Shown one piece after another: positions 22,621 through 51,676 of a DNA stretch of 64,000 nucleotides (position 1 is its first letter; each line of letters opens with the position of its first letter). The position numbers were made by a program, and so were the translations under genes. Source of the stretch: [Phormidium] sp. LEGE 05292 (GTDB lineage: Bacteria; Cyanobacteriota; Cyanobacteriia; Cyanobacteriales; Aerosakkonemataceae); assembly GCF_015207735.1 (NCBI RefSeq), contig NZ_JADEWG010000021.1, positions 1-64,000 on the forward strand. Reading direction: 5' to 3'. The notes under the pieces are model-generated. The model searched no databases. It worked only from the letters and a program-made list of their open reading frames with translations, and was not told the DNA's origin.

Positions 22621-22624
22621 AACT

Positions 22625-25001: not shown

Positions 25002-25018
25002 AATATGGAACTTTAACC

Positions 25019-25864: not shown

Positions 25865-25934
25865 GAGAAGCAGAGGGGAGTAAATAAAAGCTTTTGTTCC
25901 CAGCAAATCTGCAAGTTAAATATAGAAATACTAA

Positions 25935-25996
25935 ATTAATTGGAAATACTTCTTCTTCTTTCCTTCGCGTTCTTTGCGTCCTTTGCGGTTCAAAAA
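25935..25996. repeat. Dispersed CTTTCTTCGCGTCCTTTGCG-type repeat
   Basis: The stretch TTCCTTCGCGTTCTTTGCG-TCCTTTGCGGTTCAAAAAAA lies in the short gap before the ATPase gene. A second copy lies at 52228-52305. Confidence 0.7.
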
Positions 25997-26022
25997 AAAG
26001 CAAAATTAGTGAGGCTAAAACT

Positions 26023-26799
26023 ATGTATTTGCAAATTACCAACCTGAACAAAGATTTTCAAACCAAAAACGGTACTTTAGTCGTCCTTAAAGACATTAAT
26101 ATGACGATTAAAGAAGGAGAATTTATCTGTGCTGTTGGGGCATCTGGGTCAGGTAAATCTACCTTATTACGACAAATTGCTGGACTTGATAAACCTACTT
26201 CTGGAGAACTCAGAATCGATGGCGAACTGATTACTGGGCCTGGGCCCGATCGCGGAATGGTATTCCAGCACTATACACTTTATCCTTGGATGAATGTACA
26301 AGAAAACACTGAATTTGGATTGAAGCTTCAAGGCGTACCAAAAAAGGTGAGAAGAGAGCAAGCAAGCTACTATTTAAGTGTAGTGGGATTGGCTAATTTT
26401 GCTAAGTCATTGCCTAAAGAATTATCGGGGGGGATGAAACAACGTGCTGCGATCGCACGCGCCCTAGCTTCCGAACCAAAAGTATTATTAATGGACGAAC
26501 CTTTCGGCGCATTAGATATTCATACCAAAGAGTCAATGCACGAATTTATGTTAGACCTTTGGAAAAGAACAAAAATCACCATTTTTATGATTACTCATGA
26601 TGTCGAAGAAGCCGTATTTCTCTCCAATCGAATTTACGCTTTAGGGGCACGTCCTGGTACAGTCAGAAAAGAAATTACCATCAAATTACCCGATCGCACT
26701 CACAGTGTTAAACGCCACAGCATTTTCCATGACTACCGAGACGAACTAATGGAATTATTACGTAAACATGGACAAGAAGCTGTAGCAGTCGCCGCCTAA
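26023..26799 (+). CDS. ABC transporter ATP-binding protein (guanidine importer)
   Basis: The 258-residue ATPase has Walker A GASGSGKSTL, Q-loop VFQHYTLYPW, signature LSGGMKQR, Walker B VLLMDEPFGALD and switch His in MITHD. It belongs to the nitrate/sulfonate/taurine importer ATPases. The ATG giving MYLQITNLNKDF was chosen; a longer frame upstream would only translate the dispersed repeat. A good terminator follows, ending the guanidine locus. Confidence 0.92.
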   Translation: MYLQITNLNKDFQTKNGTLVVLKDINMTIKEGEFICAVGASGSGKSTLLRQIAGLDKPTSGELRIDGELITGPGPDRGMVFQHYTLYPWMNVQENTEFGLKLQGVPKKVRREQASYYLSVVGLANFAKSLPKELSGGMKQRAAIARALASEPKVLLMDEPFGALDIHTKESMHEFMLDLWKRTKITIFMITHDVEEAVFLSNRIYALGARPGTVRKEITIKLPDRTHSVKRHSIFHDYRDELMELLRKHGQEAVAVAA

Positions 26800-26817
26800 A
26801 AAGAAAAGCTCAAGGTA

Positions 26818-26883
26818 GAGGGAAAAGGTTAAAGGTTAAAAAGTTAAAGCATCTATACAAACCTTTCCCTCGTTTCTTTTTTG
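26818..26883 (+). terminator. Terminator of the guanidine operon
   Basis: GAGGGAAAAGGTT pairs with AACCTTTCCCTC around a roughly 28-base loop and is followed by GTTTCTTTTTT. Confidence 0.65.
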
Positions 26884-26982
26884 ACATGAATTAATTTCCT
26901 AAAATTGCACCTTAGAGTGATGCAAATTCTCCTGTGTTACTGACAAAATATAAACAGCGAACGCAGCAGAAGAGGTTTATCG

Positions 26983-27909
26983 ATGTTTATACCACCTGGT
27001 TTTGGAGAGCGATCGGTCAATACCTTTTTAGGAGACATGGTTTACTACACTGCCGTTGACCAACCTTGGGATAACAATGGCACCAAAGAAAGCGAGAAGA
27101 CACTAATTTTTTTACACGCTTTTGGCGGCGGTTCTTCCGCTTATGAATGGTCTAAAGTTTACCCTGCATTTGCTTCTGAATATCGAATATTAGCACCTGA
27201 TTTAATTGGTTGGGGACGTTCCAATCATCCAGCCAAAAATTACCAAATAGACGAATATATTAAGATTATTCAGGAGTTTATTGAAAAAACTTGCGATCGC
27301 CCAGTAACAGTTATTGCTTCTGGATTAACTGCTGCTTTTACAATTCGGGCAGCAATTAATCGGCCTGAACTATTCAAGTCATTAATTTTAGTTACTCCCG
27401 CAGGATTAGCAGAATTCGGAACAGATTACAGTCAAAGTGTTTCTGCTAAAGTAGTTAAAATTCCGCTGTTAAATCAAGTACTTTATAGTGCTGGAGTCGC
27501 TTCAGGTTTAGGGGTTCGTAGCTACTTAGAACAACGCCAATTTGCTCATCCCGAACGAGTTTACCCAGAAATTGTTGACGCTTATTTAGAATCTGCTCAA
27601 CAACCAAATGCAGAATACGCCGCCCTCTCATTTGTCAGCGGTGATTTATCTTTTGATTTAGCAGAATATATTAATCTACTCACTGTTCCTACAGCAATTA
27701 TTTGGGGAAGAGAATCTGAATTTACTGGGCCAGAAATCGGTCGTCGTTTAGCACAAATGAACCCGCAAGCAATTCGCTTCTTTTATCATTTAGATGATGT
27801 CGGTTTTACCCCGCAATTAGAACTTCCCTCTGTGACTATTGGGCTAATTCGGAAATTTTTACCTTTGCTAGATACAGAACAAGCTAATACCGTTTACACA
27901 AATGATTGA
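26983..27909 (+). CDS. Alpha/beta-hydrolase fold protein lacking the catalytic triad
   Basis: The 308-residue protein has the fold landmarks LIFLHAFGGGSSAYEW (oxyanion loop) and ILAPDLIGWGRSNHP. The nucleophile elbow, normally G-x-S-x-G, reads ASGLT at about 112-116 with Gly in the Ser position. The late acid site reads WGRESEF and the usual Gly-His reads VGFTP. It is therefore probably not a hydrolase; it may bind a ligand or a protein. It follows the guanidine operon terminator by about 100 bp, so a link to guanidine use is not supported. Confidence 0.8.
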   Translation: MFIPPGFGERSVNTFLGDMVYYTAVDQPWDNNGTKESEKTLIFLHAFGGGSSAYEWSKVYPAFASEYRILAPDLIGWGRSNHPAKNYQIDEYIKIIQEFIEKTCDRPVTVIASGLTAAFTIRAAINRPELFKSLILVTPAGLAEFGTDYSQSVSAKVVKIPLLNQVLYSAGVASGLGVRSYLEQRQFAHPERVYPEIVDAYLESAQQPNAEYAALSFVSGDLSFDLAEYINLLTVPTAIIWGRESEFTGPEIGRRLAQMNPQAIRFFYHLDDVGFTPQLELPSVTIGLIRKFLPLLDTEQANTVYTND

Positions 27910-28143
27910 TACAAATGAGGTAGGGGCGGGTTTAGCCAGAAGTTCCCCATACCCAACAATAAATATTGAAGTCAAAACCCGCCCCTCCCAAGCATTCGTA
28001 GCAAACATTTAGGTAATCGATATAAGTAATAGCTAACATTGAAATGGCAAAGTCCCCGTAGACCCAGGTTGAAACCTGTGCAAACAAGGGGGTTGTCCAA
28101 ACAGTTAATCCGTAAAATATTCAACTATACTTGATGTCAATTA

Positions 28144-29154
28144 GTGAAATTTAGTTCCACTGACATCATGCTGCAACGAATTGCTTTCATTATCACCATT
28201 GTCACATTAACAGTTTTAGGTTTACTATCTTTATTAGTCTACTTTGCTTGGGATTGGCCTTTAGAACTAATAGCTCATTTCCGAGTTCAGTATTTAATCT
28301 TAGCAGTAATATTCGCTATCTTTTTAATTATTCTACGGTTAATCGGTAAATTAAAAAATAAAGCCTTAATTATTGTTGCTTTATTAATTGTCGGGTTAAA
28401 CGCAGTTGATGTAATTCCCTGGTATTTACCTCATTCACAACAGGTAACTGGTACTCCAGGTAAACCAATGAGGGTTTTATTTTTTAATTTGAATATTCAA
28501 AACAATCAAGACAACCAGATAGTTAATGTAATCCAAAGTAATCGCCCTGATTTAGCTTTATTAGCAGAAGTTGACGAAAGCACATTTAAAATATTAAACA
28601 TTAATTTAAAAGACACTTTACCTTATACTTTTAAAAGTCCGGGTGGAGGTTTAGCTGTCTTCAGTCGCTTTCCCTTTACAGATATTAAAGCCGATCGCTT
28701 AAATGGTCAAGGAAATCATAATATCATTGCTAGTCTGGAAGTCAACAAACAACAAATTAAATTTATTGGCATTCATCCCTTAGTACCTATAACTTACGAT
28801 AATTTTCTCCGCCGTAATAGTCAGTTAGCCGCAGTCAGTGATTACATTCAAAAGCAAAATCAGCCATTAATCTTAGTAGGAGATTTGAATACCACACCTT
28901 GGTCGCCTTACTATCGGCAGTTAATTAACAAAACTAAGTTATATAATACCCAGCTAGGGTTTGGTCTTTTACCCACTTGGCCTAGATCGTCAACTCATGT
29001 CCGTTTACCTTCTTGGCTAATTCCTTTAGTGAATATTCCCCTCGATCACTGTTTAGTTAGTCAGCAGTTTGGGGTACGGCAAATTTATACAGGCAGAAAT
29101 GCTAATTCCGATCACGCATCGCTGATAATTGATTTAGTGTTACAAACAAATTAA
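28144..29154 (+). CDS. Endonuclease/exonuclease/phosphatase (EEP) family membrane protein
   Basis: The 336-residue protein starts with about three membrane helices (residues 10-95). An EEP domain follows with MRVLFFNLNIQN (Asn), LALLAEVDES (metal Glu), IGIHPL, LVGDLNTTPWSP (Asp and Asn) and NSDHASLIIDL (catalytic His). Relatives hydrolyse phosphodiesters in DNA, lipids or phosphoinositides; the substrate is unknown. The membrane anchor suggests a periplasm-facing phosphatase. The GTG start was kept; an ATG eight codons in is an alternative. Confidence 0.82.
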   Translation: MKFSSTDIMLQRIAFIITIVTLTVLGLLSLLVYFAWDWPLELIAHFRVQYLILAVIFAIFLIILRLIGKLKNKALIIVALLIVGLNAVDVIPWYLPHSQQVTGTPGKPMRVLFFNLNIQNNQDNQIVNVIQSNRPDLALLAEVDESTFKILNINLKDTLPYTFKSPGGGLAVFSRFPFTDIKADRLNGQGNHNIIASLEVNKQQIKFIGIHPLVPITYDNFLRRNSQLAAVSDYIQKQNQPLILVGDLNTTPWSPYYRQLINKTKLYNTQLGFGLLPTWPRSSTHVRLPSWLIPLVNIPLDHCLVSQQFGVRQIYTGRNANSDHASLIIDLVLQTN

Positions 29155-29220
29155 TCAGCTGGTCTGGGATTTTGTTAAATAATGGAGGAAACTGACATGA
29201 GTCAAACAATAGCCATAATG

Positions 29221-29247
29221 TAGAGACGTTATATATAACGTCTCGAA
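29221..29247. repeat. GAGACGTT/AACGTCTC palindrome
   Basis: TAGAGACGTTATATATAACGTCTC is a relative of the terminator palindrome at 14346. Confidence 0.7.
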
Positions 29248-29439
29248 AAGGTTTTGGGTCAAGAATACTAAGGCTGATTAGTCGGACATGATATCAATAT
29301 CTTCTGTACCTTAAGTTTTAATGCTTGAGATTGATGTCACTTTATTAATTATTAGTTATCTTGATTATTGTGAATCAATTGGGGTCAGCTTAAATAAAGA
29401 CCCTAACTATAAAATCTACTTTTTTATCGACTTATCGAC

Positions 29440-29473
29440 AAAGCCAACTCAGCTTTTTGGAGTTGGCTTTAGC
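29440..29473. terminator. Hairpin upstream of small gene, possible terminator
   Basis: AAAGCCAACTC and GAGTTGGCTTT form an 11-bp perfect stem with a 9-base loop. It sits downstream of the minus-strand gene ending at 29637. T-richness is weak on both sides. No other feature was recognised in the surrounding region of about 480 bp. Confidence 0.45.
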
Positions 29474-29636
29474 GATTTTGCAGGTGAACAAATTTTCCGA
29501 CCATGACTTCCCGGAACTTGCCGGAGTTGTAGCCAAAACTGCTGCTTTTGCAGACATTCAAATATTTCAATATGGTTTAACAGATGCGAACAGCTTTGAG
29601 GGGATAAATCATGATGGGAAAGGTCTAGTTTTGCTG

Positions 29637-29837
29637 TTATTTTAGTAACCTAGTTACTCGCACGTCGTATTCAATACCCTGTGGATGATCTGTTCTGGCT
29701 TGTACCTTTGCCATGCTGTCGGCTGTTTGTCTAGATTGTGCATCAATCTCGTAGCGTGTTGTTTCCCTGCGACAGTCATTGTTTGTTGGTTCAAGATATT
29801 CTTTGATATCAACCAACACCTCATAAGTATGATACAT
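29637..29837 (-). CDS. Small hypothetical protein
   Basis: The 66-residue protein (MYHTYEVLVDIKEYLEPTNNDCRRETTRYEIDAQSRQTADSMAK...) has a strong ribosome-binding site (GAGGAGG, eight bases before the ATG), the main reason for trusting it. The first half alternates like a beta-strand, the second half is helical. It may be a small modulator protein; no family was recognised. Confidence 0.65.
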   Translation of the reverse strand: MYHTYEVLVDIKEYLEPTNNDCRRETTRYEIDAQSRQTADSMAKVQARTDHPQGIEYDVRVTRLLK

Positions 29838-30385
29838 TTTGGGTGCCTCCTCGTTTTACTTGTAAACGATCGAGATTTATAAAAATAAGTATAGGAACAC
29901 TAGCGGAGTCCATCCTTAAATGAATACAATTCTTAGCAACTCTTTATGTTTTACTCAATAAACTAATTTTTCTAAATTTTTAAGTTTAAGAAGACTTGTT
30001 AAAAAATGTTAAGCCTGACTGTGCAATAAGGCAGAAAAAAAGTTTTTCAGTTTTTTTCAACTGATTATTTATTTCTGCTGCCATAGTGCGATGCTGTAAT
30101 TCATCTGCATAAAGGTAGATTATTTTGAGTGTTTAATTTTATTTTTAGATAATTTATTCTGTTTTTCTATAAATATAGAATTTTTCTTATACTAAAGCAG
30201 TAAATTTACGTATTTATTTTATATATTGCAGTTTGTTTAAGAGTGAATATTGTTATTGAGAAAGTTGCACAATAAATATTGTGATAATTAATATGTAGCA
30301 GTGGAAAGACATTAAAGTTAGAATAGTAAACTTTTGAGTGTAATTATTTTATATTAAGTTAAAATACCTTTTAATAAAGTGGAAT
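29838..30385. promoter_or_regulatory. Long AT-rich leader of the giant hybrid kinase
   Basis: The 540 bp are strongly AT-rich with runs of A and T and no gene recognised. The promoters of the small gene (minus) and of the hybrid kinase (plus) must lie here. Bends or nucleoid-protein sites are plausible but were not identified. Confidence 0.45.
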
Positions 30386-33300
30386 ATGTTCGCGATCGAC
30401 GACCCAGTTATTTGCTATCAGTTAGCGGGATATGAACGACTGCAAACACCGATTTGGATTTATGATATCCAAAATCTTAAAATGAGGTGGGCGAATCGCG
30501 CCGCTTTACTCCTCTGGAATGCCGCAAGTTTAGAAGAATTACTCAGTCGTGATTTTAGTCAAGTTTCTACTGCAACGCATACCCGCTTGCAAACTTACTT
30601 AGAGCTTTTTGAGCAGGGTAAAACAGTAGTTGAACAGTGGACATTTTACCCAAAAGAAAATACCCTATCTGTTCGTTGTACCTGTTCTGGTATTCACCTG
30701 GAAAACGGACGTTTAGCAATGTTAGTGGAAGCAGAAAAAATAGAAATTCGCCAAACAAAAGATCCGATAACTGGTTCAAATATGCTGTTGGTGAATGAAA
30801 ATGATATCACCTCATTGAAGCAAACAGAAGAGAAATTACGCTGGAAAGAAACTTTATTGCGCTCGATGACTAATACTTCCCCTTTAGGGTTTTATGTAGT
30901 AGATAATTGTACCGATGAAATTCTTTATTTTAATCATAAACTTTGCCAAATTTGGGGAATTGAGCATTTAGAATCCCAAATGGATCGCGGTCAAATAAAA
31001 AATCTGGATGTGATTGCCGAGTGTGTAAAACAATTAGTAGATGTCGCGGGATTTACTAAAGTCTGTAAACCGTTACAAAATCAAGAAAACAGGGCTATTG
31101 TAGAAGATGAAATTCCTTTTAAGGATGGCAGAATTATTCGGCGGTTTTCGGCACAGATTCGCGATCCAGACGATCGCTATTTCGGCAGACTCTACATATT
31201 CGAAGATATCACTGAACGCAAACGAATTGAAGAACAACTACAATTAGCAGATTTTTCTCTAGAACACTCCTCTTTGGCTACAGTCTGGATCGATCGCAAT
31301 GCCAAAATTATTCGCGCTAATAAAAAAGCCTGTGAACAACAGGGTGTTTCCCGTGAAGAGTTGTTATCAAAATACGTTTGGGATAACGATCCTAACTTTC
31401 CGAAAGCAGCATGGACTGAACATTGGGAAGAACTGAAACGACAAAAAACTTTGTCTTTTACCTCAGAACATCGCCGTAAGGATGGCACAATTATTCCGGT
31501 AGAAATTACCTTGAATTATTTAGAATTTAATGGCAAAGAATATAACTTCTCTTGTTGTCGTGATATTAGCGAACAGCAAGCTGCGCTATGCGAACGCAAA
31601 AAAGCCGAAGCAACTTTACAACGAAGAGAACAAGAATTTCGCGCTTTAGTAGAAAACGCTCCTGATATTATCATGCGAATCGATCGGGAATTTCGCTATC
31701 TTTACATCAATCCTACAGTAGAAAAACATTTAGGAATTCCTGCCAGAGAATTTATCGGTAAAAACATGGCAGAATTTGGTGCAGATGAATCATTAGTGCA
31801 ACTTTGGCAAACAACTATTCAACAAGTATTTGAAACTGCTCAAGAACAAGAAATAGAATTTCAATCTCCATCAATTCAAGGAATACTTTATTATGCTACC
31901 CGTATAGTGCCAGAATTTGCTAGTGATGGTTCTGTGCAGTCAGTATTAGCGATCGCGCGGAATATTACCGATCGAGTAGAAGCTGAAAAAGCCTTGCGAC
32001 AGAACGAAGAAAGAATGCAAGCACTATTAAAAGCCATACCCGATACAATGTTTCGTCACCGAGTAGATGGCACTTATTTAGATATACAAGCAAATGAAAA
32101 TACCTTACTCGTACCAGCGGAAGTTCTCATTGGCAAAAAATTAACAGACTTAAATATGCCTGAACACATCTCAAAAGGATTGCTCGAAAATTTTCAAGCC
32201 GCAGTCACCACCGGAAAACTACAAACATTTGAGCATGACTTAAAAAAACCTGATGGAATGTACACTTATGAAGCTCGAATTATCAAAAGCGGTGCTGATG
32301 AAGTAGTTTGTATTGTTCGAGACATTACAGAACGCAAACTAGTCCAAAAAGCCTTGCAGGAAAGTGAAGAACGCTATCGTTCTGTGGTGACAGCAATGGC
32401 AGAAGGCATTGTTTTGCAAGATGCAAACGGTGTTATTCATACCTGTAACAGCAGTGCGGAAAGAATACTCGGTTTAAACTGCGAACAAATGATGGGAAAA
32501 ACTTCCGTCGATCCTCTTTGGCAAGCAATCAAAGAAGACGGATCGCCTTTTCCAGGGGAAGAACACCCAGCAATGGTGACGCTAAGAACTGGTGAACCTT
32601 GCGTTAATGTAGTCATGGGAGTGCATAAACCCGATGGTAGTTTAACCTGGATTTCTATTAACTCTCAACCTTTATATAAATCTGGTGATTCTCTACCTTA
32701 CGCAGTTGTCACTTCATTTTTTGATATTACAGAACGTAAACATGGAGAAGAAGCTTTACAAAAAGCACTTGCAGCAGCACAAGCAGCATCGATTTCTAAA
32801 AGTCGTTTTCTCTCCCAGATGAGTCACGAACTGCGGACACCGCTGAATGCAATTCTCGGTTTTAGTCAGGTAATGGCAAGAAGCAAATCTCTTTCTGCTG
32901 AACAACAAGAACAGCTAAAAATTATTAATCGCAGTGGCGAACATTTATTAAATTTGATCGACGACATTTTATCAATGTCTAAAATTGAAGCAGGTCAAAT
33001 TACACTAAATGAAAATCGCTTCGATCTCTATCAATTACTCAACGATATAGAGCAAATGTTACGATTCAAAGCTGCTGGGAAAGGCTTACAATTAATTTTT
33101 GAACGATCGGCAAATCTTCCCCAATATATTGAAAGTGATGAAAGCAAGTTGCGGCAAATTTTAATTAACCTGTTAGGCAATGCCGTTAAGTTTACCAATG
33201 AAGGTACTATTTATTTAAGGGCGAAGTTGGGAAATAGTCAGCAAGCTCAATCTTTAATTAACTTTGAAGTAGAAGACACTGGTGCGGGAATCGCACCTGA

Positions 33301-34210
33301 AGAAATCCCCACTATGTTCGATCCTTTTGTGCAAACGGAAACAGGTCGTAAATCTATGCAAGGAACTGGATTAGGTTTACCGATTAGCCGACAATTTGTG
33401 CGCTTAATGGGGGGAGATATTGCAGTTAAAAGTCAATTGGGTAGAGGCACAATTTTTACTTTTGATATTAAAGTTAAACAAGTAGATAGGATTCAAGTAA
33501 AAAGTACATTGACTCTTAAGCGAGTGATTGGATTACAACCTAATCAACCTACTTATCGAATTTTAATCGTTGAAGATATCGAAGAAAATCGGCTGTTGCT
33601 AGTTAAATTATTGAAACCCTTGGGATTTGAAATACAGGAAGCGGTTAATGGACAAGAGGCGATCGCTTTATGGTCAACTTGGCAACCTCACCTAATTTGG
33701 ATGGATATGCTCATGCCAATAATGGATGGTTATGAAGCTACTAAACAAATTAAAGCCTTGCAACAACAAAGATTGACAAATGAAAATGTTCCCAAAACAG
33801 TGATTATTGCCCTAACAGCTAGTGCTTTTGAAGAAGAAAAAGCGAGTATATTTTCATCTGGTTGTGATGACTTAGTGCGGAAACCTTTTCAAGAGTCAGA
33901 GTTGTTTGAAAAAATGGCTCAACATTTAGGAGTGCGCTATATTTATGCAGATGAAACTCAACAAACTTCATTACCCTCAGCAATTCCCAAGAAGTTGCAC
34001 GCAGAAGATTTAAAAGTAATGCCGATCGACTGGATAGCCGAACTAAATCAAGCCGCACTCTGCATTAATGATGATATCATTTTGGAATTAGTTAAGCAAA
34101 TTCCTGAAACTGAAGCTGCTTTGGCTGATACCCTGACAGATTTAGTCAAAAACTTTCGCTTGGATTTAATCTTAGAGTTAACCGAAGCAATTATTCCTTC
34201 CGACAGCTGA
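30386..34210 (+). CDS. Large multi-PAS hybrid histidine kinase
   Basis: The 1274-residue soluble protein contains about six PAS/PAC units (closing motifs NDITSLK, EDITERK, CRDISEQ, ARNITDR, VRDITERK, FDITERK). A HisKA domain with [14 protein letters not shown] (His814), an ATPase domain ([36 protein letters not shown]) and a receiver domain from about 1055 (ILIVEDIEENRLL, IWMDMLMPIMDGYE, VRKPFQE) follow. A helical tail of about 85 residues resembles the linker seen before an HPt but has no clear phospho-His. There is no membrane segment. It stands alone, so the partner regulator is unknown. Confidence 0.92.
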   Translation: MFAIDDPVICYQLAGYERLQTPIWIYDIQNLKMRWANRAALLLWNAASLEELLSRDFSQVSTATHTRLQTYLELFEQGKTVVEQWTFYPKENTLSVRCTCSGIHLENGRLAMLVEAEKIEIRQTKDPITGSNMLLVNENDITSLKQTEEKLRWKETLLRSMTNTSPLGFYVVDNCTDEILYFNHKLCQIWGIEHLESQMDRGQIKNLDVIAECVKQLVDVAGFTKVCKPLQNQENRAIVEDEIPFKDGRIIRRFSAQIRDPDDRYFGRLYIFEDITERKRIEEQLQLADFSLEHSSLATVWIDRNAKIIRANKKACEQQGVSREELLSKYVWDNDPNFPKAAWTEHWEELKRQKTLSFTSEHRRKDGTIIPVEITLNYLEFNGKEYNFSCCRDISEQQAALCERKKAEATLQRREQEFRALVENAPDIIMRIDREFRYLYINPTVEKHLGIPAREFIGKNMAEFGADESLVQLWQTTIQQVFETAQEQEIEFQSPSIQGILYYATRIVPEFASDGSVQSVLAIARNITDRVEAEKALRQNEERMQALLKAIPDTMFRHRVDGTYLDIQANENTLLVPAEVLIGKKLTDLNMPEHISKGLLENFQAAVTTGKLQTFEHDLKKPDGMYTYEARIIKSGADEVVCIVRDITERKLVQKALQESEERYRSVVTAMAEGIVLQDANGVIHTCNSSAERILGLNCEQMMGKTSVDPLWQAIKEDGSPFPGEEHPAMVTLRTGEPCVNVVMGVHKPDGSLTWISINSQPLYKSGDSLPYAVVTSFFDITERKHGEEALQKALAAAQAASISKSRFLSQMSHELRTPLNAILGFSQVMARSKSLSAEQQEQLKIINRSGEHLLNLIDDILSMSKIEAGQITLNENRFDLYQLLNDIEQMLRFKAAGKGLQLIFERSANLPQYIESDESKLRQILINLLGNAVKFTNEGTIYLRAKLGNSQQAQSLINFEVEDTGAGIAPEEIPTMFDPFVQTETGRKSMQGTGLGLPISRQFVRLMGGDIAVKSQLGRGTIFTFDIKVKQVDRIQVKSTLTLKRVIGLQPNQPTYRILIVEDIEENRLLLVKLLKPLGFEIQEAVNGQEAIALWSTWQPHLIWMDMLMPIMDGYEATKQIKALQQQRLTNENVPKTVIIALTASAFEEEKASIFSSGCDDLVRKPFQESELFEKMAQHLGVRYIYADETQQTSLPSAIPKKLHAEDLKVMPIDWIAELNQAALCINDDIILELVKQIPETEAALADTLTDLVKNFRLDLILELTEAIIPSDS

Positions 34211-34315
34211 GAAACCACCCTTTCGGGTGATTGGCATTAACTATAAGTTGTTGAATAATGATATCAAGGTTAAAGATTTATCTGCTTCTATTTCCAAATT
34301 CTATATGTAACTAAG

Positions 34316-34352
34316 AGCCTATCTCTATCAGTGGAAATAGGCTTTATTATTT
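34316..34352 (+). terminator. Terminator of the hybrid kinase gene
   Basis: AGCCTAT and ATAGGCT form a 7-bp stem followed by TTATTATTT. A smaller CACCCTTTCGGGTG hairpin lies directly after the stop codon. Confidence 0.6.
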
Positions 34353-34382
34353 GGTTTTGTAAGCTGTTTCGCATTGAAAATA

Positions 34383-35945: not shown

Positions 35946-36920
35946 TTATGGTTTGAATTCTTGTGTTTGTTCTAATAGGCCGCTGCGACCCAATGCCTCA
36001 TCAATAATGGCTCGCAGCCGCTGCACCAATTCAGGTGAGGGGGATGTAAAGTCTTTTAGTTCATACACTCTGCCCAGAAATCCATACTTGCTTTCACCAA
36101 AGCGGTGATAGGGCAGTAACTCATAGTCAATGACATTGGGGTACGGACGAATGAACGCTAGCACCGATCGAATGTGCTCTTCGTCGTCATTCACACCGGG
36201 AATCAGCGGGGTACGGGCAATAAAGGTTTTGTCGGGAAAGGTTTCATAGGCTCGCTTCATGTTGGCTAGAATCTGACGATTATCTACACCACACCACTTT
36301 TTATGTCGCTCTGGATCAGTCAGCTTGTGGTCATGGAGAACCACATCCACATGGGGCAATACCTTTTCCACATGGGACCAGGGAACATTGAATGCGGTTT
36401 CGATCGCGGTGTTAAATCCCCGTCGGTGGGCTTCCTGGAGCAGTGCCGCACTGAAATCCGGTTGCAGTTGACACTCGCCGCCGCTGAGCGTCATTCCACC
36501 ACCCGATTCCCGGTAAAACGTGCTGTCCTGCTCCACCTCATCGAGTACCTGCTCCACGCTCATGGCCTGACCAAACAGGTAAAGTGCCCCCGTTGGGCAG
36601 AGGTCAACACATTCCTGTCCACAATCAGTCGCTAAATCCCAATTGACGCGGATGCGATTGTCCTCTCCTTCCAGGACATAGAAAGCACCTTCTGAGCAAG
36701 GTGGCTTCAAACATAGACCGCACTGCTTTTTGCCAATGCACTTGCTAATGTTGTAAGCCAGTTCAGGCTTAGGGTGAATACTTTCGGGATTGCTGCACCA
36801 TTTGCATCGTAATGAACAGCCCTTGAGAAAAACTGTAGTGCGAATGCCCGGACCATCGTGGGTGCAGAAATGCTGAATGTTGAGCACCAGTCCGGTTGGG
36901 TTTGTTGATGAATTTGTCAT
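35946..36920 (-). CDS. Glycyl-radical enzyme activating enzyme (radical SAM, PflA-like)
   Basis: The 324-residue protein has the radical-SAM cluster C-x3-C-x2-C (Cys35, Cys39, Cys42 in KGCSLRCKWC) next to the typical DGPGIRTTVFLKG. Two ferredoxin-like clusters (C61-x5-C-x2-C-x4-C75 and C100-x3-C-x3-CP) are the insert seen in activases of glycerol dehydratase, HPAD and CutC type enzymes rather than PflA itself. ESGGGMTLSGGE (SAM binding) is present. It abstracts a hydrogen from the glycine of the GRE encoded at the other end of the same operon. Ribosome-binding site GAGGAG. Confidence 0.95.
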   Translation of the reverse strand: MTNSSTNPTGLVLNIQHFCTHDGPGIRTTVFLKGCSLRCKWCSNPESIHPKPELAYNISKCIGKKQCGLCLKPPCSEGAFYVLEGEDNRIRVNWDLATDCGQECVDLCPTGALYLFGQAMSVEQVLDEVEQDSTFYRESGGGMTLSGGECQLQPDFSAALLQEAHRRGFNTAIETAFNVPWSHVEKVLPHVDVVLHDHKLTDPERHKKWCGVDNRQILANMKRAYETFPDKTFIARTPLIPGVNDDEEHIRSVLAFIRPYPNVIDYELLPYHRFGESKYGFLGRVYELKDFTSPSPELVQRLRAIIDEALGRSGLLEQTQEFKP

Positions 36921-36933
36921 GGGTTTTATCTCC

Positions 36934-38082
36934 TCAACCTCCTAAACAGATGCCAAGCGATCGGGCAATCTGGACAAATTCACTATCCGCTGGCACAGTG
37001 CGAATTTTGTTGATTGCTTCTACTAACGGCACGAAGTTAAGGTTGGACGGTTGAAAATTCACCATCACTCCGGTTTGCCCTGCATTTAAAGCCCTTACCG
37101 CTCCGGCCCCATAGCCTAGACCGAGTTGGCGATCGACGGCGGTGGGAGTGCCCCCTTTAATTAAATTTCCCAACACCAGCGGATAGGTTTCCTGTTCGAT
37201 TAATCGCTGAAGTTGGAACGCAACAGTTTGTGCCGCATACCCCGATCGCTGGATGACATGACTTCCTTGATAGTCGCTGGCTAAGGGCGATAGGGAGGCT
37301 TTAAGGGGATTCGCAGAGGCAACAACTGCTTCTGGGTCTACGGATACCGCTCCCTCTGCAACGATCACCAATCCATGCGATCGCCCTGCCCTAAACTTGT
37401 CCTGAAGTTTCGCGGCTACTTTTTGCAGGTCATAGGGAATCTCTGGAATCAGCACCGCATCGGCACAAACGGCTATCCCCGCTTGCAAGGCCAGCCAACC
37501 GCTATGTTCTCCCAACACTTCCACAACCCCAATCTGGTGGGAAGACTGAGCCGCTTGTTTAGCGCGATCGAGCAGTTCAGTGACAAAACTCAGGGTACTG
37601 TTAAACCCAAAAGATAGCGCCGTTGCCGCGATGTCATTTTCTACTGACCTTGGGATGCAGACGGTTTTGAGTCCTTTGCGGTGCAGCTTATAGAGAATGC
37701 TCAGTCCCTGTAGCCCAACGATTGAAATCACAGCATCAATGCCTTCTACCCGCAAGGTTTCCAGCAGGTCATCCGATCGGTCTACCTCTTCAACTAAGCT
37801 CTCAGCGGTGATGGTACGGACGTGAAAAGGATCGTTGCGAACGGCAGTCCCCAGAATGTTGCCGGATGGATCAAGGGTTTCCATCCCTTGAGGGGTGAGG
37901 GGAAGCAGTCCACCCTTGGGATAGCGATCGCGAAACAACACTCCCTCAAAGCCATCCCGGATGCCAACGACCTCCCATCCCAGCTCATTTGCAGCCAACA
38001 CCGCTCCGGTGATTACTGTATTCAGTCCTGGACTGTAACCAAAGCCCACATTAATCGCAATGCGTTTGATTGTTGCGCTCAT
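36934..38082 (-). CDS. Phosphofructokinase-family protein with altered catalytic motifs
   Basis: The 382-residue protein has the overall PFK layout (GFGYSPGLNTVI at the start, VEVLGEHSGWLAL, LIPEIP, LGNLIKGGTPTAVDRQLG). Key residues differ: GGDGT is GLQGL at 123-127, PKTIDND is PRSVEND at 144-150, the MGR motif is LGE, and the GHxQRGG motif is GNLIKGG. Mg-binding and the catalytic Asp are thus changed. It may phosphorylate a different substrate, use another donor, or not be catalytic. It lies 13 bp upstream of the activase gene and 21 bp after the SDR gene, within the GRE operon. Ribosome-binding site GGAGG. Confidence 0.8.
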   Translation of the reverse strand: MSATIKRIAINVGFGYSPGLNTVITGAVLAANELGWEVVGIRDGFEGVLFRDRYPKGGLLPLTPQGMETLDPSGNILGTAVRNDPFHVRTITAESLVEEVDRSDDLLETLRVEGIDAVISIVGLQGLSILYKLHRKGLKTVCIPRSVENDIAATALSFGFNSTLSFVTELLDRAKQAAQSSHQIGVVEVLGEHSGWLALQAGIAVCADAVLIPEIPYDLQKVAAKLQDKFRAGRSHGLVIVAEGAVSVDPEAVVASANPLKASLSPLASDYQGSHVIQRSGYAAQTVAFQLQRLIEQETYPLVLGNLIKGGTPTAVDRQLGLGYGAGAVRALNAGQTGVMVNFQPSNLNFVPLVEAINKIRTVPADSEFVQIARSLGICLGG

Positions 38083-38103
38083 GACTATGAATCCTCCGCT
38101 GCT

Positions 38104-38928
38104 CTAGTGCTTGTCGTGAGCCGCTTGCATATCAGCCATGCGTTGCCGGATAACGGGACGCAAATCTTCTCCAAATCCAGTGAGCGCACCACCATCGACG
38201 GCCAGGGTTTGCCCCGTGATCATGTCAGACCGATCGCTGGCGAAAAACACCGCCGCATTGCCCAGATCTTCGATCGTGCACCAGCGACCCAGGGGGATTA
38301 ATCGCTTCGTCGTCATATCCCTGTATTCCTGAGTCGTATTCTGCTCTGCCAGGGGCGTGAGAACGGCTCCAGGGGCGATCGTGTTGACATTAATGTGGCT
38401 ATCAGCCAACTCCCAAGCCAGATGATTGGTTAAGCCTGTAACGGCATATTTAGAGGCAGTGTAGTTCGCGCCACCAAAAAAAGTCATGCGAACCCCAGCC
38501 ACAGATGAAACATTGATGATTTTGCCTTTGCCCTGCGCCATCATTTGGGGAATCACAGCCTTACAGCAAAAGAAAACCCCCTTGACGTTGACCGACATCA
38601 CCCGATCCCAGACCTCTTCGGAAATGTCTTTCAACAGGGTTGGCGGACTTTCAATCCCCGCATTGTTGACGAGAATGTCCACCCGACCAAACTGTCTCAC
38701 CGTCTCTGCCACCATTGCCGTGACCTGATCTTCCTTAGCGACATCAGCCGCGATCGCAATGGCAGTGCCCCCAGCCGCTCGAATCCTCTCAACCGTCTCC
38801 TGGCAATCTTGCTCTTTGCGGGAGTTAATCACCACTTTGGCTCCTTCACGAGCTAAACAAACTGCGATGCCCTCGCCAATGCCTCTGGCTGAGCCTGTGA
38901 CGATCGCCGTTTTCCCTTGTAGTTCCAT
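38104..38928 (-). CDS. SDR-family oxidoreductase
   Basis: The 274-residue classical SDR has the cofactor motif TGSARGIGEG, NNAG, the catalytic Ser in INVSSVAG and Tyr-x-x-x-Lys in YTASK, plus INVNTIAPG. SRK after the second strand leaves NAD versus NADP preference open. It probably reduces or oxidises the carbonyl made by the adjacent GRE. Directly after the GRE gene (33 bp) and before the PFK-like gene, with ribosome-binding site GGAGAG. It appears complete with a normal length. Confidence 0.93.
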   Translation of the reverse strand: MELQGKTAIVTGSARGIGEGIAVCLAREGAKVVINSRKEQDCQETVERIRAAGGTAIAIAADVAKEDQVTAMVAETVRQFGRVDILVNNAGIESPPTLLKDISEEVWDRVMSVNVKGVFFCCKAVIPQMMAQGKGKIINVSSVAGVRMTFFGGANYTASKYAVTGLTNHLAWELADSHINVNTIAPGAVLTPLAEQNTTQEYRDMTTKRLIPLGRWCTIEDLGNAAVFFASDRSDMITGQTLAVDGGALTGFGEDLRPVIRQRMADMQAAHDKH

Positions 38929-38961
38929 AATGTGTACTCTCCGTTATCAATTTTGTCTGAC

Positions 38962-41460
38962 TCAACCCATGTGTTCTTCCGTTCGGGCGATAATCTCTGC
39001 CTGTTGCATGGGCGATAAATCCACAAAGTAGGCGGAATATCCAGCAATTCGCACAATTAGGTTGCGATACTTATCGGGATCTTTCTGGGCTGCCATCAAG
39101 GTTTGCTTATTGATGATGTTGAACTGAACGTGCCAGTGCTTCAGTTCGCTCCAGGTGCGGATAATTTGCATCAAACGGCGCGTCCCTTCTTCCCCTGCCA
39201 CATTCGCTGGGCTGAACTTCAGGTTAATCAGATCGCCGCCCTTTTCCCGGTAGCTCAAATCCCTGCCGTGTGCCATAGACGTGAGTGCCACGGTTGGCCC
39301 TTTCACATCCATGCCGTGAGATGCTGAAATCCCTTCTGCCAGGTATTCATTGGCGGGTCTGCCGTTGGGAGTTGCCCAGGTGACTTTACCCAGAGGCACA
39401 TGGAAGGTGACGGGGATCTGGCGTAGTAGGAAGCACTGGTCGTGGGGTTTGGGATGCTGATGCAGGTACTCCAGAATGAAGTGCTCAATCTCCCAACCAA
39501 TTTGATCGACCCACTCAATGCCGTTGCCGTATTTGGGCGCATTCAGGCACATCTGCCGAATCGCTTCGTGTCCTTCCCAATTGGCCTCCATTGCCTCCAA
39601 TAGCTGATCCCAGGTCAGGCGTTTGGTGTCAAAAATCAGGTGCTTGACCGCCGCTAGACTGTCGATCGCGGTGCCTTTGCCAATCGCCTCAAAGCAGGAA
39701 TGGTCGATCGCACCAGGGATGTAGTCACCGTGACTGTGCAGATCGCGGCAGTGCTCCATTGCCAGGTCATGCAACATGGAGGTGGCAGGAGCCGCAAAAT
39801 AGTTCGGTTTAATCTTTAAGGCTAAATGCTGTTGAATCAGAGCATGTTTTGCCAGATACCCAAGCTGAGTGCAGAAAGCGTTCCACACCTGATCAAAGCT
39901 CGTCCAGGTGCGCGGGTCGCCCGTCTGCACGCCGAACTGGATATCCTTCAGGACTTTTAGCTTGCCATTGCGGAAGGTCATTTCCGTCACTGAGCCATAG
40001 TTGATGCCGCCGTTCCCGGTGACATTGGTTTCCCGGTTAATCAAGCGGTTTTCGCAACAGCCCGAAATGTTCCAGTCCAGGGCTTCCTTCATCGTGGCTC
40101 CGTTCGCCAGGTAGAAGGGAATCACCATTTCATCGTTGAGCAGTTTTGGAAATCCCTTGCCGTCCTTAATCACTTCTGCAACATAGTGCAGCAGGCGATC
40201 GGGCGTGTTGGCATGGATGCGGATGCAGGGTTCCGGCACCGGAATTTGCAGTGCCCGCGTCGATTCCAAAATTAAATAGGTCAATTCATTGGTGGCATCC
40301 TTACCATCCGTCGTTTGTCCGCCCAGACAGATATCCTCAAATTTGGAAAAACCCTCGGTTCCGGCTGCCGCAACTGGATTGAGTTTGATTTCAACACATT
40401 GTGCCATCTGAATCCAGAGACACTGGAAGAGTTCTGTAGCCGATTCAGGCGCGATCCGACCTTCTGCCAAGTCTTTCTGATAGTAGGGCAGCAGGTACTG
40501 ATCCATGCGCCCCTGCCCCATGGCGCTACTGGTTTGCTCGATGCGGTTAAACATCTGTCCCCACCACTGGGCCTGTATCGCTTCATGGAATGTCCGAGCG
40601 GGATTTTCGGGCACCCAGTTGCAGACTTCAGCGATCGTCAAAAGCTCCGGTTTGCGCTGGGGATTTTGCTCTTTAGCAGCCATTTCAGTAGCCAGTTGAG
40701 CGTACCGTTTAGACCAGATAGTCATGGCATCACAGGTCGCGATCACCGCTTCCAGGAAGGGTTTTTTGTAGATCATGTCCCGTGGCTCGGTTAGGGCATC
40801 CAGCTTCGCCCGCGCCTCTGCCCGAATCCCTTTAACCCCTCGCGTCAGAATTTTATTGAAGTCCGGTGTCCAGTTTTGGGAATGCCGGATGTTGGAGGTT
40901 GCCAGGACAACGCAGGTTGGCAGGAGCAAATTTTTTGGATCGGGACCAAACATCAAAAAGCGGGTTTCTTCGGGCAGGGCATCATGAAAGGCCGAGGCAT
41001 AGTCCTTGCCTGTCCAGTAGGGCGTTAGAACGTCGTTGATCAGCCGGGCATCTTCGTCCGTAACGATCACTTCCCCAGCCTGACCCTTATTTTTGCGAAA
41101 CATCTCTACCCCCCCTGGCATGATGCTGCCATCCAGTTCGGGATAAACGATGCCCCACCGCCCCAGCCAGGTGTTGGGACGACCGACAATCAGCTCATCG
41201 TCAAAAATGGCGATCGGGGCTTTCTCGGCATAGTGCTTGAGCGCCTTAGCCCAGCGCACCACCATCGGCTGGCTCTCGGTTTCCTGAAACGATTCAGTGA
41301 ACAGGACTGCCCGATCCAGCGCGACCCGTGGCGGGCCATAACCACGAATCGCTTCATACATTCGCAACACGCGATCGCTAACGTTTTCATATAGAGATTT
41401 CTTACCTTCTGCGATCGCCCGTTCTTGAGCTGTCAGCGTGGGTGTCGTCACGGATGTCAT
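38962..41460 (-). CDS. Glycyl radical enzyme (dehydratase/lyase/decarboxylase class, substrate unknown)
   Basis: The 832-residue protein has the C-terminal glycyl-radical loop IVRIAGYSAYF with the radical glycine near residue 807. The thiyl-radical site is SGCCENR (Cys468 or Cys469, Glu470). The C-x-E pattern places it with GRE dehydratases, C-N/C-S lyases and decarboxylases rather than pyruvate formate-lyase, whose site is a bare Cys-Cys. The N-terminal DELIVGRPNTWLGRWGIVYPELDG and the late ATPNGRPANEYLAEGISASHGMD also fit. The ATG was preferred over an upstream TTG (ribosome-binding site GGGAGA). It heads the operon with SDR, PFK-like and activase genes. Activity must be limited to anoxia. 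Confidence 0.95.
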   Translation of the reverse strand: MTSVTTPTLTAQERAIAEGKKSLYENVSDRVLRMYEAIRGYGPPRVALDRAVLFTESFQETESQPMVVRWAKALKHYAEKAPIAIFDDELIVGRPNTWLGRWGIVYPELDGSIMPGGVEMFRKNKGQAGEVIVTDEDARLINDVLTPYWTGKDYASAFHDALPEETRFLMFGPDPKNLLLPTCVVLATSNIRHSQNWTPDFNKILTRGVKGIRAEARAKLDALTEPRDMIYKKPFLEAVIATCDAMTIWSKRYAQLATEMAAKEQNPQRKPELLTIAEVCNWVPENPARTFHEAIQAQWWGQMFNRIEQTSSAMGQGRMDQYLLPYYQKDLAEGRIAPESATELFQCLWIQMAQCVEIKLNPVAAAGTEGFSKFEDICLGGQTTDGKDATNELTYLILESTRALQIPVPEPCIRIHANTPDRLLHYVAEVIKDGKGFPKLLNDEMVIPFYLANGATMKEALDWNISGCCENRLINRETNVTGNGGINYGSVTEMTFRNGKLKVLKDIQFGVQTGDPRTWTSFDQVWNAFCTQLGYLAKHALIQQHLALKIKPNYFAAPATSMLHDLAMEHCRDLHSHGDYIPGAIDHSCFEAIGKGTAIDSLAAVKHLIFDTKRLTWDQLLEAMEANWEGHEAIRQMCLNAPKYGNGIEWVDQIGWEIEHFILEYLHQHPKPHDQCFLLRQIPVTFHVPLGKVTWATPNGRPANEYLAEGISASHGMDVKGPTVALTSMAHGRDLSYREKGGDLINLKFSPANVAGEEGTRRLMQIIRTWSELKHWHVQFNIINKQTLMAAQKDPDKYRNLIVRIAGYSAYFVDLSPMQQAEIIARTEEHMG

Positions 41461-41487: not shown

Positions 41488-41908
41488 TCAGTTCGATTGC
41501 CGATTGTTAAAAGCAGCCAGTTCTTCGGCCAGGATAGGCACACCCAAATAACAGGACTCCATTCCAAAAGCAACGCAGACCTTCAGCACTTCCATGATTT
41601 CCTCCATCGTTGCGCCCAACTTCAAAGCCGCTTTAATGTGCCGACGAACCTAAACTACAGGAATGGATTGACATCACTGATGCCATCTTTAAAATCATCA
41701 AAATCTCATCCTGAGTTGCTCCGGCTACGAGGGCTGTGCGAATGTGCCGACGAGTTCCATCGGCTTGCAAATTCGTACAGGCCGCATTTAACCCAATGCA
41801 GATTAACTCGATTGTTTTGATATCTAAAATCCCGTTTTTCCAGGGATTCGTTGTCATGTTTAGATACTGTTCTGCCCAGGCTGGATCCCATTCTCGCAAT
41901 TGATTCAT
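41488..41908 (-). pseudogene. Degenerate two-domain CMD-family (carboxymuconolactone-decarboxylase-like) gene
   Basis: The first part encodes a CMD domain (ELICIGLNAACTNLQADGTRRHIRTALVAGATQDEILMILKMASVMSIHSC). After SLGSSAH a stop occurs, and another frame then continues with RRHIKAALKLGATMEEIMEVLKVCVAFGMESCYLGVPILAEELAAF, the end of a second CMD domain. The two similar halves have been joined by an internal deletion. Its ribosome-binding site (AAGGACAC) is intact, and it lies 28 bp upstream of the GRE gene on the same strand. Confidence 0.8.
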
Positions 41909-41946
41909 TGAAGTGTCCTTTCAATCCTTCACAACCTGACTTGCGA

Positions 41947-42083
41947 TCATGCGATCGCAACCATGACCTTCCCATCTATCACCTGAACCTGATAGGAGTT
42001 TAGGGTGACTTCGGGATTGTTCGCCATACAACCTTTAGTGAGATTGAACTTCAACCCATGAGCGCGACACGGGTGCAGGAAGC
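41947..42083 (-). pseudogene. C-terminal Rieske [2Fe-2S] domain fragment
   Basis: The frame ends CRAHGLKFNLTKGCMANNPE, then VTLNSYQVQVIDGKVMVAIA and a stop, matching the second Cys-x2-His half of a Rieske domain and its final strands. The first Cys-x-His half is missing, and the DNA before it joins a truncated BKACE gene. It was probably a small ferredoxin encoded in the original operon. Confidence 0.7.
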
Positions 42084-42128: not shown

Positions 42129-42617
42129 CTACAGAATACTTGTTGGGGAAGTGATTATTCCTGCTGGTTTAGGTAGCACAGCATCACTCTCATAAGTCAG
42201 AAAACCTTTATAGCCTTCGGGACGGTTGGGTGGCAGACCGAGGTTGAAAAGCGTTTCTTCTACCGTGTCATACCAGACATCGAGCTTCTTGGCTTTTGCG
42301 TCCTCTGTGTGCGGCGCGAAGGAGATCGAGCCCCCAACCTGAAGGATCATCTTCGGTACTGCCTCACGCAGCCGCCCAATAAATTCGTTGTACTGGTCGA
42401 AGTTGGTCGAACCCTGCCCAGTCTTAGGATCGCGCACATGGACGTGCAGCATCGTCGCACCTGCATTGTAGCAATCTACCGCAGCCTGTACCTGCTCGTC
42501 CCACGAGACGGGAATATCCTCGACATCACCCGGCAACCACTCAGGACCGAAGGGAGCCGCTGTGATGATGAGCGGTTGCATATTTTCGGGAAACAAAGAG
42601 TCATCCGTGAAATACAT
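42129..42617 (-). pseudogene. Truncated BKACE (DUF849, beta-keto acid cleavage) gene
   Basis: The 162-codon frame matches the N-terminal half of the beta-keto acid cleavage enzymes (PLIITAAPFGPEWLPGDVEDIPVS, AVDCYNAGATMLHVHVRDPKTGQGS with metal His-x-His, LREAVPKMILQVGGSISFAP). The TIM barrel normally needs about 280-320 residues, so half is missing and the product is probably dead. Same strand as the GRE operon. Confidence 0.8.
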
Positions 42618-43947: not shown

Positions 43948-44185
43948 AGACAAAAACATCCGATCGATTGTAACCAGATTCGTTTGGTTTGTGCATACCA
44001 GTGGGCCAAAAGTACCGACGCTACCCAATTAGCGGCAATGATAGATGTGCGCCAAATTCAGTAGACCGAAAAGTTATCTGAATTAAAGCAGGGATTAGGG
44101 GTTAATCGTAGCTTGTGAATCAAGATTTGGAGCCAAAAAAAAGAACTCTCCAAAGATCCAAAGTGCGATCGCACGCACCATTTCC

Positions 44186-45028
44186 TTAAGTTACAATCTT
44201 CTTTTTGATCGTAGGCTTAGGCTTATCAGTAACAGTAGGTGGAGAACTTTTTGCTTGATCGACGTTACTCGCTTCCTCCGCTTTAGCCCGCTTCTGCTGT
44301 TTCTTCAATTCCAGTACTTCTGCCTTCAAAGCCTTACCAGGTTTGAAATGTGGTGGTATTTCCTCGGTAGGTATCCCATTCAAAGATTCAAACCCAAACA
44401 TATCCCTACCTGGGATAAACCGTGCTTTTATCTCCACAAAATAACGCTTACCTTGCTCCTCCTTCTGAAGTTTTGGATTGAATCGGAATGGCGGTACGAG
44501 TGCATCTTTCCAAATTAAGGGAAGATGTTGAGCTTTCATGAATCGAACTTTCCGTGCCGAGTCTAACGGTTTAATTCTAGCTTTAATCTCCTCATTAAAA
44601 TTCCGAAAAACTGAAATGCACGGCGTTCTACACACTGGAATAAATTGCCACAGTCCACAAAGTTTAAACTCAAAATCTTGTGCAGTGAATACATCCTTAT
44701 CAGATGAATTGTCCTCACCATTTATAGGTGCGAATCCTACAAGTGAGAATCCTAATATGTGTGTTTTATCCCGCCCCGGAAAATGCAACGCTTGGGGATA
44801 TACCGTTAGCCTTAATTCCTTTGACCCATTTTCTCCTAATTCCAGTTTTAGTGCATCCCAAGCTCTCATCCCTTTGTTATGAGGCGCGTATTTCAAGGGA
44901 TACTCCTTCCCTTGTACCTGGACAAATGCTCTATTGATTTCGGAGTCTAACCTGACTTTCCCTGGTAAAATCCCAATAGCTTGAAATAATGTGGGCTTTT
45001 GTTCGCTAGGCTGTGGTTCGTTGGTCAT
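44186..45028 (-). CDS. Conserved hypothetical protein with Lys-rich tail
   Basis: The 280-residue protein has a globular body with beta-rich segments (ILPGKVRLDSEINRAFVQVQGKEYPLKYAP, KTHILGFSLVGFAPING). A basic C-terminal tail (KALKAEVLELKKQQKRAKAEE ... KPKPTIKKKIVT) suggests nucleic-acid contact. No domain was recognised. It lies inside the mosaic region between IS4 remnants and may be part of a mobile cargo. It diverges from the AAA ATPase gene. Confidence 0.6.
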   Translation of the reverse strand: MTNEPQPSEQKPTLFQAIGILPGKVRLDSEINRAFVQVQGKEYPLKYAPHNKGMRAWDALKLELGENGSKELRLTVYPQALHFPGRDKTHILGFSLVGFAPINGEDNSSDKDVFTAQDFEFKLCGLWQFIPVCRTPCISVFRNFNEEIKARIKPLDSARKVRFMKAQHLPLIWKDALVPPFRFNPKLQKEEQGKRYFVEIKARFIPGRDMFGFESLNGIPTEEIPPHFKPGKALKAEVLELKKQQKRAKAEEASNVDQAKSSPPTVTDKPKPTIKKKIVT

Positions 45029-45170
45029 AAATAAAAAGTTAGTCCCTAATATTTGGGCTTTTTCCAGCTATCATAGCTCAAATTTTAAACTTCCTTCCCA
45101 CAACGCAAGTTCCATCAATAGCAGGTATTGGATAAAATCTTTTGGTTTTGCCCAAACTAAAATAAAATTA

Positions 45171-51675: not shown

Positions 51676-51676
51676 T

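Follow-up and report, generated by a model that had tools for sequence, protein, structure and literature searches.

Glycyl radical enzymes (GREs) that split sulfonates are known mainly from strict anaerobes. Passages of two published accounts point the same way (PMC6453916; PMC12890257). The described systems closest to the locus examined here are HpsG, a 2,3-dihydroxypropane-1-sulfonate (DHPS) sulfolyase, with its activase HpsH, and IseG/IslA, an isethionate sulfite-lyase. Parts of two reports describe an Arg/Gln/Arg set of sulfonate ligands that members of the IseG/IslA cluster conserve but other GREs do not (PMC6453916; PMC8473560), and what one of them gives on the cluster bounds it at an identity edge of roughly 60% (PMC6453916). 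Here, a four-gene cassette on the minus strand at positions 35946-41460 of a 64,000-nucleotide stretch of DNA (the window) from the filamentous cyanobacterium [Phormidium] sp. LEGE 05292 is compared with these systems. The four intact genes encode, in order, a GRE, a short-chain dehydrogenase/reductase (SDR), a phosphofructokinase (PFK)-like protein, and a radical S-adenosylmethionine (SAM) activase. A GRE with its activase is of a known kind, but the clade and the fixed partners are new: the sulfonate lyases IseG, HpsG and IslA are the closest counterparts of the GRE in sequence, yet it forms a clade of its own. The cassette is tentatively read, with a probability of about 0.45, as encoding a GRE 1,2-eliminase that acts on a small, anionic hydroxy-compound (most probably a hydroxysulfonate), together with an SDR for the carbonyl compound and a repurposed PFK-fold partner.

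The glycyl radical enzyme and its relatives

All four open reading frames (ORFs) are open, with one terminal stop each and no internal stops, and are separated by gaps of 33 (GRE-SDR), 21 (SDR-PFK-like) and 13 bp (PFK-like-activase). A Shine-Dalgarno-like purine-rich stretch precedes every start codon, so the tight operon with 13- to 33-bp gaps and good ribosome-binding sites that the initial annotation had described is borne out. Pfam assigns PF02901 plus PF01228, SDR, PF00365 and radical SAM to the four ORFs; given the strong E-values and the recurrence of the four genes in six other genomes, the operon is not a chance reading. The GRE, the sole PF02901 match of the host genome, starts at ATG 41460, with the mechanically called ORF reaching a TTG at 41466. 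A scan for promoters and terminators returned fewer sites than the shuffle means (8 versus 10.8 and 7 versus 9.9).

Among NCBIfam models, that of HpsG (NF048011) matches the GRE best, at 992.3 bits, followed by a second family at 542.5 bits. In the PDB, the top-scoring chains are 5ymr (824 bits), 6lon (771 bits) and 7kq3 (771 bits), after which scores drop to 501 bits; 7kq3 is named IslA in the PDB, and 5ymr and 6lon are taken here to be IseG and HpsG. The enzyme is not a pyruvate formate-lyase (PFL), as had been stated at the outset: its adjacent Cys pair is reminiscent of PFL, yet the PFL model TIGR01255 scores 84.9 bits against a cut-off of 994.2. In a maximum-likelihood tree of 27 GREs, the six full-length cassette GREs form one clade (support, 100/100) outside the group that unites IseG, IslA and HpsG with another uncharacterised clade (87/87, or 89/88 with a reduced outgroup). 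The enzyme, for which the initial annotation had proposed a tree, thus falls beside, not inside, the characterised IseG/IslA/HpsG clade, and it lies under the identity edge of about 60%; identity to 14 sister-clade GREs is 43-49%.

The window GRE carries the glycyl loop RIAGYSAYF, with Gly807, and the motif GCCE, with Cys468 and Glu470, as first noted; the x of CxE is Cys in the cassette GREs. In IslA numbering, R189, R678, C468, E470 and G805 (R192, R680, C468, E470 and G807 in the window) are present in all six cassette GREs examined and are common to IseG/IslA; with HpsG/HpsH the cassette shares the eliminase class, the CxE motif, both sulfonate Arg residues and an activase. The telling Arg is R678, since it is absent from all four outgroup GREs and R189 from only one of them. 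To judge from these residues, the pocket should bind a small anion, although not identically to IslA or HpsG. A structure model of the GRE (predicted local distance difference test [pLDDT] score of 70, with active-site stretches below 50) was not used.

An uncharacterised sister clade (L059, L060, L062 and L064) likewise has both Arg residues, and one member lies near a gene for sulfoacetaldehyde acetyltransferase (Xsc). It differs in carrying Ala at position 193, where the cassette clade has Asn, and in having no PFK-like gene nearby; a generic SDR gene is found 4.5-6.3 kb away at two of its three loci inspected. Six sister loci in all (L073-L078, 14-19 kb each) were inspected with tblastn. 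The activase gene is beside the GRE in every one, a PFK-like gene is near the GRE in none, and a generic SDR is encoded in two (L074 and L073; 39 and 37% identity to the window SDR). These two SDRs are about as close to the window SDR as are the second SDRs of two cassette loci of other genomes, L032 and L035. Thus, the PFK-like partner and the tightly linked SDR are features of the cassette clade, and an SDR alone is weak evidence. In L073, the sister-clade GRE lies about 3 kb from the Xsc gene, which scores 771 bits against a cut-off of 676, so that sulfonate chemistry in the wider GRE group is supported. This pair (Xsc, L073:13242-14963; GRE, L073:7701-10178) also suggests that the sister clade with Ala at IslA position 193 is probably sulfonate related.

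The case for a hydroxysulfonate is drawn from the clade and the Arg pair, and several observations weigh against it. The NF048011 cut-off of 1000 bits is missed by all four cassette GREs scanned (992.3, 988, 995.2 and 966.8 bits), and identity to IseG, HpsG and IslA is 46.7, 44.5 and 44.2%, respectively. An approximately unbiased test (p 0.144) does not decide between the cassette clade and the other uncharacterised clade as the earlier branch, and the outgroup branches are long. Arg at 189 is nonspecific, as it also occurs in HypD and two other outgroup GREs; for HypD, part of the IslA literature reports the same (PMC8473560). All six cassette GREs have Asn in place of Gln193, the third sulfonate ligand, and the pocket of the clade is further changed by S190H, I192Q, T312S and S684F; with Asn for Gln193 and altered neighboring positions, another anion is possible. 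No sulfite- or sulfonate-handling family was found among 30 neighbor ORFs scanned at the cassette loci of other genomes (L032-L035, L037 and L038, with L036 left out). We know of no sulfonate-lyase operon in which a PFK-like partner plays a part.

Some of these points would suit a GRE that dehydrates or cleaves an anion other than a sulfonate, such as glycerate, 3,4-dihydroxybutyrate, or a phosphate or phosphonate, with the two Arg residues holding the anion and the SDR reducing the aldehyde formed by dehydration. The remodelled pocket and the lack of sulfur families among the 30 ORFs fit this alternative, as does a gene of the beta-keto acid cleavage enzyme (BKACE) family that adjoins the cassette in both cyanobacteria and in none of the other hosts. 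The full Arg pair, however, otherwise marks the sulfonate cluster, and the Xsc gene near one sister-clade GRE also runs counter to it; a non-sulfonate anion is judged possible but doubtful.

Conversely, the GRE could be a plain HpsG or IseG orthologue, so that the enzyme would be an already described sulfolyase of DHPS or isethionate and only the host would be new. The window protein falls less than 1% below the HpsG cut-off, and its activase is also closest to HpsH. However, no cassette member scanned reaches that cut-off, whereas all six sister-clade proteins scanned score 1128-1583 bits; the clade is separate, and its 44-47% identity lies under the edge of the published cluster. Compared with HpsG/HpsH, the cassette misses both curated cut-offs and adds SDR and PFK-like genes to the operon; compared with IseG/IslA, it has Val or Ile for Phe682 and Phe for Ser684; and in both comparisons Gln193 is lost to Asn. 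With the PFK-like gene also absent from all six sister loci, plain orthology is improbable.

The partner proteins

The SDR has the motifs TGxxxGIG, NNAG and YxxSK in all seven copies, and its nearest PDB chains are FabG-type reductases. The cluster-rich activase reported initially is confirmed by a CX3CX2C motif, present in all seven copies (CSLRCKWC in the window), and by a total of 13 Cys. The window copy is closest to HpsH (NF048010, 375.9 bits), below the cut-off of 430, and is above that of TIGR02494 (330 bits; cut-off, 174.35).

The PFK-like protein shares family and fold with the ATP-dependent 6-phosphofructokinase PfkA (PF00365) but differs from it in that the ATP/Mg Asp, the catalytic Asp and the substrate Arg are replaced. 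Its TIGR02483 score is 250 bits (cut-off, 430), and its structure model (pLDDT 70, predicted template modeling score [pTM] 0.59) matches PFKs best in the PDB, which confirms the fold only. The residues of the seven cassette copies were compared with those of E. coli PfkA and of six other PFKs of cassette-bearing genomes (from G000, G409, G410, G411 [two] and G413). The Asp residues of GGDGS/T, TIDND (catalytic) and GGDAPG, which we take to be the relevant 6-phosphofructokinase motifs, are absent from all seven copies. D104 and R172 are lost, catalytic D128 is replaced by Glu, and D13 is replaced by Tyr in 7/7, the ATP-loop alignment being uncertain in L035 and L038 (short insertion); the other PFKs keep D104, D128 and R172 in 6/6 and D13 in 5/6. 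R244 and H250 are gone from every copy as well, and these are also variable in the other PFKs (kept in three and four of the six, respectively). E223, N129 and D130 (Met1 numbering) are retained throughout. Between the two cyanobacterial copies, the ratio of nonsynonymous to synonymous substitution rates (dN/dS) of the PFK-like gene is 0.10, indicating purifying selection, so the protein appears to be kept and repurposed rather than the product of a dead gene. A separate PFK with the usual residues is encoded in the host genome.

Clear PFK family membership and fold, purifying selection and the three retained residues could also be expected of a working kinase, dependent on ATP or pyrophosphate, that makes or consumes a phosphorylated sugar tied to the GRE substrate. 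However, D104, D128, D13 and R172, which are lost or replaced in every copy, are kept in all or nearly all of the other PFKs compared; the protein is not an ordinary phosphofructokinase, and a kinase role seems very unlikely. The sugar or polyol substrate initially suggested from the PFK-like gene fares poorly, since the GRE clusters with organosulfonate lyases, with both Arg residues retained, and the PFK-like protein lacks residues that a sugar kinase should have.

Occurrence, transfer and surroundings of the cassette

A genome collection (stated to span 84,980 species) was scanned with exact 8-residue patterns of the window GRE, which yields a lower bound for divergent members. Seven loci (L032-L038) were found in six other genomes, so the four-gene neighborhood that the initial annotation proposed to search for does recur. 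GRE identity to the window is 94% in Elainella saxicola E1, 81% in a Planctomycetota and in a Deltaproteobacteria metagenome-assembled genome (MAG), 76% in a Xanthobacteraceae MAG, 75% in a Verrucomicrobiales MAG, and 75 and 79% on two contigs of an Alphaproteobacteria MAG. Close relatives of the SDR, PFK-like protein and activase are encoded near the GRE in all six, in the order GRE-SDR-PFK-activase in five (one of these has its GRE divided between two contigs). The deltaproteobacterium departs from this order, with the genes for the PFK-like protein and the activase upstream of that for the GRE. The cassette is thus present in seven genomes, including the window's, and was otherwise not found in the sampled genomes. 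Identity to the window ranges over 94-75% for the GRE, 89-64% for the SDR, 89-51% for the PFK-like protein and 94-74% for the activase; Elainella ranks first for all four genes and the other genomes rank broadly alike, as expected if the cassette travels as one unit. The combination of GRE, SDR, PFK-like protein and activase is not described in the titles and abstract openings of the literature searched, nor does the PFK-like gene occur at the sister loci, in keeping with the early remark that no characterized pathway matches it.

Around the cassette, a gene of the carboxymuconolactone-decarboxylase-like (CMD) family is found in four of the six (L032, L034, L035 and L037), and in L037 a SAM synthetase gene lies immediately upstream of the GRE. 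Of the seven cassette genomes, several of which are MAGs and may be incomplete, only one yielded an anaerobic ribonucleotide reductase. In the Planctomycetota copy, a sigma-54-type site (L033:9404-9418) points to the GRE, beside a divergent PAS/sigma-54 activator gene; the locus has 3 sigma-54-like matches against 0.98 expected, with 7 of 100 shuffles equally high, which is suggestive only. Regulators of the cassette may differ by host, with an AraC type in cyanobacteria and perhaps sigma-54 dependence in the Planctomycetota copy.

Descent within the cyanobacteria was considered and rejected, as a close GRE occurs in the window's own genome only, both of 386 cyanobacteria sampled and of 40 relatives. 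Another 106 cyanobacteria match the GRE at E ≤0.001; among the matches listed, identity is ≤40% and many are short C-terminal pieces. A high-identity GRE (E limit, 1e-150) was likewise confined to the seed genome in the other groups sampled (1/247, 1/397, 1/240 and 1/246), the group of 247 holding 13 further genomes with GRE matches at 44-49%. Carriage by phages and plasmids was also rejected: no relative was found in viral contigs, and the best GRE match in plasmids is at 36%. The PFK-like protein has matches in 24 plasmid records, all below 60% identity, the 8 listed being at 32-36%.

The cassette was apparently acquired by horizontal transfer, given that its four genes have a GC content of 50.3-53.9% between flanks of 37.7-41.2% and that a genome of the same genus (G386) has no GRE match at E 1e-60. 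The GC content of the Elainella cassette is closer to that of its surroundings (51.8% versus 45.6-49.5% in the far flanks). Positions 20959-34361 of the window are collinear, with small gaps, with G386, so the contig is cyanobacterial and the initial claim of a GRE operon in a cyanobacterium stands; collinearity stops at 34361, 1.6 kb from the cassette.

Foreign GC content, broken genes upstream and a fragmented assembly (a 74,099-base contig holds the window, in a 7.5-Mb genome of 351 contigs with a contamination value of 2.84) might be taken as signs of a contaminating contig or a decaying island. The collinear left flank, the same cassette in Elainella saxicola at 94% GRE identity, the lack of internal stops and dN/dS values against Elainella of 0.042 (GRE), 0.045 (SDR), 0.10 (PFK-like) and 0.039 (activase) (Nei-Gojobori; dS 0.60-1.45) make such an artefact scarcely credible.

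The intact genes of the cassette stretch are the four cassette genes, and the upstream companions are broken (Table 1); the BKACE, CMD, Rieske and regulator genes are all complete in Elainella. Of the BKACE gene only the two ends are left; measured against Elainella, about 200 codons between them are deleted in frame, whereas L032:5488-6600 covers the whole profile. In the regulator, HTH_18 is matched over positions 2-41 of 80 (21 bits, below the cut-off), and the L032 copy is complete. It is possible that the breaks stem from assembly error.

Table 1. Genes of the cassette and remnants upstream of it (window coordinates; aa, amino acids)
Feature	Position	Strand	Evidence or remark
GRE, 832 aa	38962-41460	-	PF02901 2e-170; NF048011 992.3 bits; trees; active-site table
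SDR oxidoreductase, 274 aa	38104-38928	-	TGxxxGIG, NNAG, YxxSK; Pfam SDR E=2e-67
PFK-fold protein, 382 aa, ATP/Mg and catalytic residues replaced	36934-38082	-	PF00365 4.6e-62; residue table; model
Radical-SAM glycyl radical activase, 324 aa	35946-36920	-	NF048010 375.9; TIGR02494 330; CSLRCKWC; radical SAM E=3e-14
Broken CMD-family gene	41488-41908	-	Deletion within the gene and change of frame; homologue L032:9287-9967 intact
Remnant of Rieske-type ferredoxin C-terminus	41940-42080	-	Compare L032:6954-7262; assignment and limits by eye
BKACE gene, 162 aa (370 aa in L032)	42129-42617	-	PF05853 over 15-97 only
AraC-type regulator gene, about half of C-terminal helix-turn-helix domain missing relative to L032	42676-43632	-	PF12625 full

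Further upstream, the region of a 280-aa ORF (44157-45162) matches two places in the same-genus genome at 91% and is a repeated gene or element. A GH63/MGH1-like glycosidase gene (52431-55148, plus strand), with homologues beside the GRE in L032, L033, L034 and L037, was considered as a part of the cassette that would point to glucosylglycerate metabolism, and was rejected. It is found in the same-genus genome at 90% identity and in 22 of the 40 relatives (own genome counted), while the GRE is in the own genome only, so its presence in the window is no evidence. Elsewhere in the window, plus-strand genes in a row (21299-26799) encode an arginase-family protein of 401 aa (174.6 bits with the agmatinase model; cut-off, 174.3), a HypB-like protein and an ABC transporter; the row resembles a nickel-dependent guanidine hydrolase cluster. 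By eye, two overlapping fragments at 51280-51751 (minus strand) resemble a broken NDH-2/FAD-dependent oxidoreductase gene, and a DNA cytosine methyltransferase-like gene (minus strand) at 55604-57757 adjoins a 316-aa ORF (plus strand) that may encode its restriction enzyme.

Proposed reaction and its meaning

The CxE motif and the relatives of the GRE suggest eliminase chemistry of the kind outlined for IslA in part of the published account (PMC8473560). Under anoxia, the activase, with SAM and a [4Fe-4S] cluster, would set a radical on Gly807 of the GRE; the radical would move to Cys468, and the resulting thiyl would abstract a hydrogen atom from the substrate, a small anionic hydroxy-compound that Arg192 and Arg680 hold in place. 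Glu470 would accept the hydroxyl proton while the neighboring group departs. That group is most likely sulfite, from a C2 or C3 hydroxysulfonate (isethionate, DHPS) or a closely similar compound. Using NAD(P)H, the SDR would reduce the carbonyl product or else supply the substrate, and the outcome would be a redox sink and sulfite for assimilation. With its fold kept and without ATP/Mg or catalytic residues, the PFK-like protein may be a ligand-binding regulatory or accessory partner, or have a new activity. According to sections of a published account, cyanobacteria are rich sources of sulfoquinovose, DHPS is a degradation product, and HpsG yields hydroxyacetone and sulfite (PMC12890257); hydroxysulfonate substrates would therefore be near at hand. 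A short-term anoxic role of the cassette is the natural but conjectural reading, as is the dark, anoxic role put forward in the initial annotation.

A bolder proposal, which is speculative and rather unlikely, is that the GRE catalyzes a new reaction on an anionic substrate, its chemistry or product handling depending on a dedicated PFK-fold pseudokinase that senses energy or metabolites, the whole forming an interphylum unit for a dark, anoxic catabolic step in an oxygenic phototroph. We know of no radical enzyme with such a sensing partner.

A separate GRE clade whose gene set is fixed and whose hosts include cyanobacteria, Planctomycetota, Verrucomicrobiota and Alphaproteobacteria would extend the known settings of radical C-S or C-O cleavage. 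It would also give a testable case of an enzyme that is destroyed by O2 and yet kept intact in an oxygenic phototroph, and would exemplify how a radical-enzyme operon can recruit a glycolytic kinase fold in which the kinase residues are replaced.

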